Assembly: GCA_947475545.1 (NCBI GenBank)
Contig: CANJLL010000011.1
Location: 1-64,000, forward strand
DNA length: 64,000 bases
DNA from: Chloroflexota bacterium
GTDB lineage: Bacteria; Chloroflexota; Limnocylindria; Limnocylindrales; CSP1-4
Direction of reading: 5' to 3'
Shown: piece after piece, positions 5,497 to 7,275 of the stretch
How positions within the stretch are numbered: the first letter of the stretch is position 1
How the letters are laid out: every line of letters begins with the position of its first letter
Position numbers and translations under genes: made by a program
The notes under the pieces: generated by a model
Database searches by the model: none
Told to the model about the DNA's origin: nothing
The model's input: the letters and a program-made list of their open reading frames with translations, nothing else

Positions 5497-6387
5497 TTAG
5501 GCGACCGGCCCCCAGGGTGCTCCTGGCGAGACGCGCCGACCACCGGGCGAACGCCGGCGGACCGCGAGGGCCAGCACCGCCGCCAGCACAGACGCCGTCG
5601 CCAGCCGGATCAGCCCGCCCAGCCCGGCGCCGGACAGGTCCGCGTCGATCGACGCGGTCAGGGCTCGCGTGCTGTCCAGGTTGATCGCCTGGACAGCGCC
5701 CTCGGCCTCCAGCAGCCGGGGCACGAAGTCGGTCCCCAGGAGGCCCAGCGCCTGGAGTGGATCACGGGGCGCCGCCACGTGATCTCGCGCGATCCCGACC
5801 AGCTGCGCTGCGGCCTGCTCGTCGGCGAGCTCGCGGTCGATCAGGGCGAGCGCCGCACCGGCCGCGGCGCGATCGGCCTGGGCGACGGCCACGACCGCCG
5901 TCGCCAGTTCGGCCTCCAGCTTGGCCGGCGGCAGGCCGAGCGCCTGCAGGACGGGCCGGGGCGCGGCCACGCGGGCGATTGCGGCGGCCACGGCCGCGGC
6001 AGCCTCCACCTGGTCCCTGGCCGCGGCGGCGGCTCGGCTCAGCGCCGGGGCATCCAGGGCCCCCTCGAAGAGCCCCCTGACGGCCCCCGTTCCCACATCC
6101 GCGTCGGGTAGGAGACGATCCGCCCTGTCCACGTCGGCGATCAGGTCGAGTGCGATCGAGATGGCGGCAGCCGTCCCCGCGCAGCGCTCGGGTCCGCTCG
6201 GCACGGCCACGGCGGCGGACAGCTGCCACGGCGCCGCCGCCACGGCGAGCACGGCCCGCTGGGCCACGATCCACTCCAGCAGCGGGCAGGCTGCCTCGGC
6301 GCCCACGGCGCGTCCGGGTGCCAACAGGATGACGCCGACCAGGGCAAGGGCGGCCACGAGGGAGCGTCCTGCGTCGCGTGCACCCAT
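5497..6387 (-). CDS. hypothetical secreted helical protein with C-terminal membrane helix
   Basis: I do not recognise this 296-residue protein. It begins with a signal peptide (SLVAALALVGVILLAPGRAVGA, cleavage near residue 30). The body is very rich in Ala and predicted helical, with a few cysteines near the mature N-terminus. It ends with a hydrophobic stretch (IRLATASVLAAVLALAV) and a basic tail, as expected for a type I membrane protein. The ATG at 6387 has a strong GGAGGAG site. It lies between two other secreted or membrane genes on the same strand, which suggests an envelope role without naming one. Confidence 0.6.
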   Translation of the reverse strand: MGARDAGRSLVAALALVGVILLAPGRAVGAEAACPLLEWIVAQRAVLAVAAAPWQLSAAVAVPSGPERCAGTAAAISIALDLIADVDRADRLLPDADVGTGAVRGLFEGALDAPALSRAAAAARDQVEAAAAVAAAIARVAAPRPVLQALGLPPAKLEAELATAVVAVAQADRAAAGAALALIDRELADEQAAAQLVGIARDHVAAPRDPLQALGLLGTDFVPRLLEAEGAVQAINLDSTRALTASIDADLSGAGLGGLIRLATASVLAAVLALAVRRRSPGGRRVSPGAPWGPVA

Positions 6388-6498: not shown

Positions 6499-7275
6499 CT
6501 AGCAGGTCACCGGGTGGGGCGCCGGGTGGGCCGCCGCGTCATCCACCGTCGACTGGCCGACCAGCGTCGCAACCACCTGCAGCTTTGGGACCGCGGCTCC
6601 CTGGCCCTCGGACGTCTGCAGCCAGAGCGATTCGGGCCCGTCCCAGGCGAAGGCCCCGCTCATGTCGGTGACGTGGCGGCGGACCTCGTCGATCCGGTAG
6701 CTGAATCGAAGGCTGTCACCCGTGTAGACGTCGACCAGCATGCCCAGCATCGCCGCGCCGTCGTTGACGAGCGACATCTTGAGGAGCGGCAGGAAGCTGC
6801 CGGTCTGGGCGTGGGCGTACAGGTAGGTGACGCCGGTCTGGCCGCCGCCGGGCTGGTCCAGCTCGACGATGTACATCGCAACGCCGCACGCGGGATACGG
6901 GGTCGCCTGTCGCATGACGGGCAGGTCGATCCCCAGGGCGCCCACGGCGACCCGTGTCGCGACGCGGTCCGTTGGCACCTTGATCGGCTTGGGCGTCGGG
7001 CCCGACGGCGGGGGTGCGCTGGGGGCCAGCGCCTGGTTGGTGGGGGCATCCGTCACCAGGCCGGCGGGCGGCAGCGTGGGCAGCAACGCGAAGGTGGGGG
7101 CGACGGCGAGGACGGGAGCAACGGTCGGTGCGGCCCTCGGTCCGACGTCTGGCTCGGCTGGGCGCAGCCCGGAGGCGGTCAGGACCGCGGCGGCCAGCAT
7201 GGCCGTGCCGCCGGCCAGGACGACCAGGCGGCGGAGAGTGGTCCGGGGTGGCGTCTGCTCAATCACCAGGTCCAC
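6499..7275 (-). CDS. sortase-like protein with Ser at the catalytic Cys position
   Basis: This 258-residue protein has an N-terminal membrane helix (residues 16-34), a Pro/Ala-rich spacer to about residue 100, and then a sortase beta-barrel: VAVGALGIDLPVM, VTYLYAHAQTGSFLPLL with the catalytic-type His155, VDVYTGDSLRFSYRIDEVRRH, and the terminal strand SLWLQTSEG. Sortases carry Cys after the Thr in this last strand (TxTC pattern); here codon 222 is TCC, Ser. The Arg usually found downstream is also absent, with Lys231 nearby. It may be inactive, may bind sorting signals, or may belong to a serine-variant lineage. GTG start. Confidence 0.7.
   Translation of the reverse strand: MDLVIEQTPPRTTLRRLVVLAGGTAMLAAAVLTASGLRPAEPDVGPRAAPTVAPVLAVAPTFALLPTLPPAGLVTDAPTNQALAPSAPPPSGPTPKPIKVPTDRVATRVAVGALGIDLPVMRQATPYPACGVAMYIVELDQPGGGQTGVTYLYAHAQTGSFLPLLKMSLVNDGAAMLGMLVDVYTGDSLRFSYRIDEVRRHVTDMSGAFAWDGPESLWLQTSEGQGAAVPKLQVVATLVGQSTVDDAAAHPAPHPVTC

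Follow-up and report, generated by a model that had tools for sequence, protein, structure and literature searches.

The literature describes sortases as cysteine transpeptidases, and the inhibitors and protein-labelling tools of the field depend on the thiol. The gene considered here lies in a 64,000-nucleotide stretch of DNA from a Chloroflexota bacterium, the whole of which we call the window, and the original prediction gave its product a sortase fold with Ser in place of the catalytic Cys. The locus therefore raises the question of whether such a protein is a dead enzyme used for binding, or a member of a lineage in which serine serves as the nucleophile. We infer that the window's family is GTDB CSP1-4, in the class Limnocylindria, which has been described previously (PMC13212565). 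The features to which we refer are as follows.

6499–7275, minus strand: TSEG-type serine sortase-like gene, 258 amino acids, GTG start, stop codon within the coordinates (from the open reading frame and homologues)
7171–7227, minus strand: N-terminal hydrophobic segment, residues 17–35 (LVVLAGGTAMLAAAVLTAS), a signal anchor with the N-in/C-out orientation of sortases (hydropathy 1.97 across 19 residues)
6550–6963, minus strand: predicted sortase-fold domain, approximately residues 105–242 (AlphaFold2 and Foldseek)
6886–6888, minus strand: Cys130, invariant in the family
6811–6813, minus strand: His155, at the catalytic-His position within YLYAHA, invariant in the family
6610–6612, minus strand: Ser222 (codon TCC), in the sortase-Cys column, invariant in the family
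6583–6585, minus strand: Lys231, within VPKLQ, in the sortase-Arg column, almost invariant in the family
6502–6504, minus strand: Cys258, the final residue, invariant in the family
5497–6387, minus strand: the next gene downstream, encoding a secreted protein with a C-terminal transmembrane (TM) segment and an RRR tail

Sequence alone is insufficient as proof that the window protein belongs with the sortases: the Pfam Sortase profile (PF04203) matches it weakly and below threshold, at 13.5 bits (E 0.061) where the cut-off is 26.6, and it is the predicted fold that carries the assignment. The AlphaFold2 model, for which 52 relatives were the input, has a pLDDT of 91.3 and a pTM of 0.89, and the best PDB matches found with Foldseek are sortases A, C and E (E ~1e-8, probability 1.00, TM ~0.65). 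In this model, His155 comes directly after strand 54–58, the equivalent of beta4, Ser222 ends strand 121–127, at the position of beta7, and Lys231 opens strand 136–148, the equivalent of beta8. In S. coelicolor SrtE1, Cys320 ends beta7 and Arg329 follows nine residues further, in beta8 (PMC5148588), which is the same spacing as that from Ser222 to Lys231. Ser222 falls under the catalytic Cys in a profile search of PDB sequences, and Ser is again under Cys in a profile–profile comparison with the Cys sortases of the phylum (97.4%, E 1.4e-11), while multiple alignment places His155 under the sortase His and Lys231 under the sortase Arg.

The predicted structure and the alignments bear out the claim of a sortase fold with Ser at the Cys position, and the model places that serine at the end of beta7. 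The accompanying claim, that the downstream Arg is missing and that Lys231 lies nearby, was inexact: Lys231 occupies the Arg column itself, and a sister branch of enzymes (TST) retains Arg. Among the features by which sortases are recognized, the window protein has the predicted beta-barrel fold, the His after beta4 and, with its hydrophobic segment, the membrane anchor and extracellular domain; it has neither the Cys at the end of beta7 nor the Arg in beta8. Since it lacks the Cys, we class it as a sortase-like variant and not as a standard member of the family. A Pro/Thr-rich linker joins the anchor to the C-terminal domain, and the only cysteines of the protein are Cys130 and Cys258, which probably form a disulphide.

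The serine is a trait of the family. TSEG homologues are found in nearly all genomes of CSP1-4, many of which have several copies, and all 52 aligned TSEG domains of the family keep Ser, with the His, the Gln-Thr-Ser-Glu motif and the two cysteines invariant. Close homologues with Cys at this position were not found: the same Ser occurs in the sister species (90% identical), in a paralogue in the window's own genome (53%) and in every other homologue. Between the sister species, the sortase domain is under purifying selection, as estimated from a dN/dS of 0.17. These homologues refute the possibility that Ser222 results from a read error, a frameshift or a local mutation, to which we give a negligible probability. 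Moreover, the serine is written with codons from both of its codon islands (TCN 78 and AGY 20 in TSEG, and seven of each in the related TSQG branch), which argues for selection on serine itself.

Searching with the second homologue of the window's genome (L001) revealed a further branch, and there are three related serine branches across the Limnocylindria: TSEG, to which the window protein belongs, TST and TSQG. The TST enzymes (LQTST..PR) come from ten genomes of the window's family and from two other families of the class; their loci have Ser in 29 of 30 cases and Cys in one (L063). The TSQG branch, with Ser in 14 of 14, fills another family, f4, where its genes occupy the same nuoN locus as the core TSEG gene. 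Both TST and TSQG proteins score above the curated Pfam cut-off for PF04203, the TST model is likewise a sortase fold, and the TST profile matches Cys sortases at 99.4%. The Arg column is occupied by Lys in TSEG, Arg in TST and Glu in TSQG; to our knowledge, Glu at this site is unlike any known catalytic sortase. The TSQG enzymes (L164–L177) combine this Glu with a conserved Arg five residues past the Ser (NRNWGE). One member of the TSEG clade (L128, open reading frame from 4748, plus strand) has TSTGP, so that the Glu following the Ser is not absolutely fixed.

The history of the exchange depends on which relatives are included. A first tree, from which the nearest outside relatives were left out, has a single Ser clade (SH-aLRT 82) with one reversal. 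With those relatives added, at least four changes between Ser and Cys are needed, and the AU test marginally rejects a single Ser clade (p 0.028), and with it one common origin of the Ser state. The closest relatives read from outside the class have Cys.

Each TST gene of the window's family directly follows a gene whose product ends in LP[SRN]T[SD], a TM segment and Arg, the layout of a sorting signal. The L063 operon, in which the enzyme has Cys, carries the same type of substrate as the operons of the Ser-type TST enzymes. Using a profile built from real sorting-signal tails (A4), we searched 177 genomes and found matches (E <= 2e-5) in 26 of the 34 genomes with TST genes and in none of the 143 others, counts that are confounded with phylogeny and come mostly from incomplete MAGs. 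When the genomes from which the profile was made are excluded, the numbers are 10 of 18 and 0 of 143, respectively. Of the ten held-out tails we read nine, and each of these is LPST[NS]-TM-Arg. Pfam Gram_pos_anchor (PF00746) was rejected as a signal detector for being unspecific, as it also matches reduced genomes without a detected sortase. At two loci (L268 and L269) in reduced genomes of a family, f2, that is probably the Limnocylindraceae, proteins end in LPETN-TM-Arg, with the layout of a sorting signal, although the f2 genomes searched yielded no sortase homologue.

Sequence comparison gives the TSEG branch sorting-signal partners as well, in relatives of the window gene. Scanning gene neighbourhoods for motif-TM-Arg tails, we found that in two genomes (G024 and G005), TSEG genes lie 18–65 bases downstream of a secreted-protein gene on the same strand, and that the upstream proteins end in MPDTAT, MPDSST or SPSTDT followed by TM-Arg. 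Homologues of one of these TSEG-linked substrates occur in 13 genomes. In G076, such a homologue again precedes a TSEG gene, with a tail that looks damaged, and in f4 several end in [ML]PD[TA]A-TM-Arg, where the sortase does not adjoin. LPxTG-like substrates thus lie beside TST genes and some TSEG relatives, but no sorting-signal protein adjoins the window copy, or the conserved TSEG copy at the nuo locus. The product of the gene downstream of the window copy (5497–6387) has neither a Pfam match nor an xPxT motif, and is a weak candidate partner.

The search for canonical sortases found two in the window's own genome (L002 and L003), both with Cys. The L002 type is patchily distributed within CSP1-4, where every such sortase whose frame was read has Cys, and it was not found in other families of the Limnocylindria. 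In two genomes (G015 and G112), the Ser enzyme has a Cys paralogue within a few kilobases. L281 (2809–6920) and L282 combine a sortase that has Cys (LQTCLGP) with one that has Ser (LQTSTSY); a few kilobases separate the two, and an LPSTST substrate lies in between. There are also genomes in which the Ser enzymes appear to stand without a Cys sortase: the operon and substrate are present and a Cys sortase is not detectable in four (G011, G019, G064 and G073), in G024 the five TSEG genes are the only sortase matches, and genomes of the family f3 mostly have one sortase homologue, of the Ser type, with Ser in every f3 homologue read.

Whether these proteins are dead binders or have a serine nucleophile can be weighed against this background. 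The lineage itself is real and extends through the class, and the weight of the sequence evidence favours the nucleophile, with the dead binder as the main rival. In the latter case, TSEG proteins would be catalytically inactive sortase folds whose task is to bind the cell wall or sorting signals, with the serine retained because it makes a hydrogen bond or aids folding. This would account for the replacement of the thiol, for the Lys of TSEG and the Glu of TSQG in the Arg column, and for the lack of a linked substrate beside the window copy; the Cys sortases of the same genome could perform the chemistry, and the use of a cysteine-free C184S SrtA in spectroscopy indicates that the swap is structurally tolerable (PMC5578623). 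However, if the role of the serine were purely structural, some homologues would be expected to carry Ala, Thr or Gly at this site, whereas His and Ser are jointly invariant across the class and Ser is retained through both codon islands. Ser and Cys are also exchanged within one type of operon, and sorting signals are present in genomes with Ser enzymes only. We therefore regard the dead binder as unlikely.

A variant of the nucleophile hypothesis is that the serine does attack the sorting signal, but that the enzyme is a hydrolase, cutting the signal and releasing the protein without transpeptidation. Nothing that we found points to a transfer step; on the other hand, the partners retain the full sorting-signal layout that Cys sortases use for transfer. 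To our mind this is somewhat less probable again than a dead binder.

We consider it fairly likely, on the basis of the sequence comparisons and the predicted model, that the product of the window gene is a secreted sortase, anchored in the membrane, whose nucleophile is Ser instead of the catalytic Cys. This reading is favoured because of the sorting-signal partners, the genomes without a Cys sortase and the natural exchange of Ser and Cys within one operon type. Against it counts the fact that serine is a much weaker nucleophile than cysteine in an active site adapted to a thiolate. In the mechanism we propose, His155 would activate Ser222, which would attack a backbone carbonyl within the C-terminal sorting signal (an xPx[T/S/A][A/S/D]-TM-Arg tail) of a membrane-held secreted protein, giving an acyl-enzyme ester. 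The oxyanion would be stabilized by Lys231, which stands where sortases have Arg, and an acceptor at the cell surface would then take the protein from the enzyme. In this scheme we infer the catalytic step and its acyl ester, as well as the acceptor and the existence of a substrate for the window copy.

More generally, sortase chemistry probably runs on serine as well, as these sequence patterns suggest. We put at slightly better than even the broader proposal of a serine chemistry throughout the Limnocylindria, with at least three branches, each with its own xPx[T/S/A][A/S/D] signals, and with Cys and Ser swapped repeatedly in the same operon type. Our literature search for a serine or dead sortase found no report, with most subscription papers lying outside its reach. 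If the serine reading is true, the sortase fold and chemistry would be workable with an oxygen nucleophile, in a natural lineage with its own sorting signals. The contribution of the thiolate would become directly testable with homologous Ser and Cys enzymes that have near-identical substrates (for example, L061 and L063), and a labelling enzyme would be available whose nucleophile does not oxidize.

Compared with the class A, C and E sortases (PF04203; S. pyogenes SrtA, S. coelicolor SrtE1, PDB 5cuw), the window protein is alike in its fold, membrane anchor and His after beta4, in the placing of the nucleophile column where beta7 ends and of a basic residue nine positions later, in beta8, and in that its relatives adjoin sorting-signal proteins. 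It is unlike them in that its branch has Ser for Cys, Lys for Arg, an invariant pair of cysteines and a C-terminal extension, and in scoring under the Pfam cut-off. The Cys sortases of the Chloroflexota, both those of the same genome and those of other classes (L002, L003, L184–L213 and L324), have a homologous domain but retain Cys and Arg; L324, a Cys enzyme from outside the class, lies near a gene for a protein ending in LPNTSA-TM-RRR, a substrate like those of TST. Exchange of Ser and Cys within a single fold has a parallel in the PA clan, where chymotrypsin and the viral 3C proteases have one or the other as nucleophile, although the fold there is unrelated and the enzymes are proteases rather than transpeptidases. 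Rhombosortase, which is paired with GlyGly-CTERM, is a serine enzyme with C-terminal sorting signals, and is an analogy in working only, as it has a rhomboid intramembrane fold and not that of PF04203 (PMC3237569).

The core TSEG orthologue has a fixed position after the nuo genes throughout the family, and the window copy is a paralogue at another site. The genes of the core locus, which from reading their sequences we take to be nuoM/N, otsB, TSEG, corA, MFS, arsR, pgsA and ino1, point to no common function, and we rejected them as functional partners. At two loci (L045, 4989–6401, minus strand, and L047, 4611–6188, plus strand), two TSEG domains lie head to tail in a single open reading frame, adjoining a secreted-protein gene. 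These secreted neighbours, presumably DUF4331-like, were rejected as anchored substrates, as the TM tail is absent in every frame. In f3 (L064–L083), the TST gene lies between an opposite-strand M24-peptidase-like gene and a gene for a secreted double-psi beta-barrel (RlpA-like) protein, and the locus continues to a gene for a KGG-repeat protein, an arrangement that is conserved. Finally, in a genome of a different class (G186), an open reading frame from 1700 on the plus strand (L341) has LITSYPY in an otherwise Cys-type sortase lineage, an isolated Ser at the nucleophile position that is apparently independent of that in the Limnocylindria.
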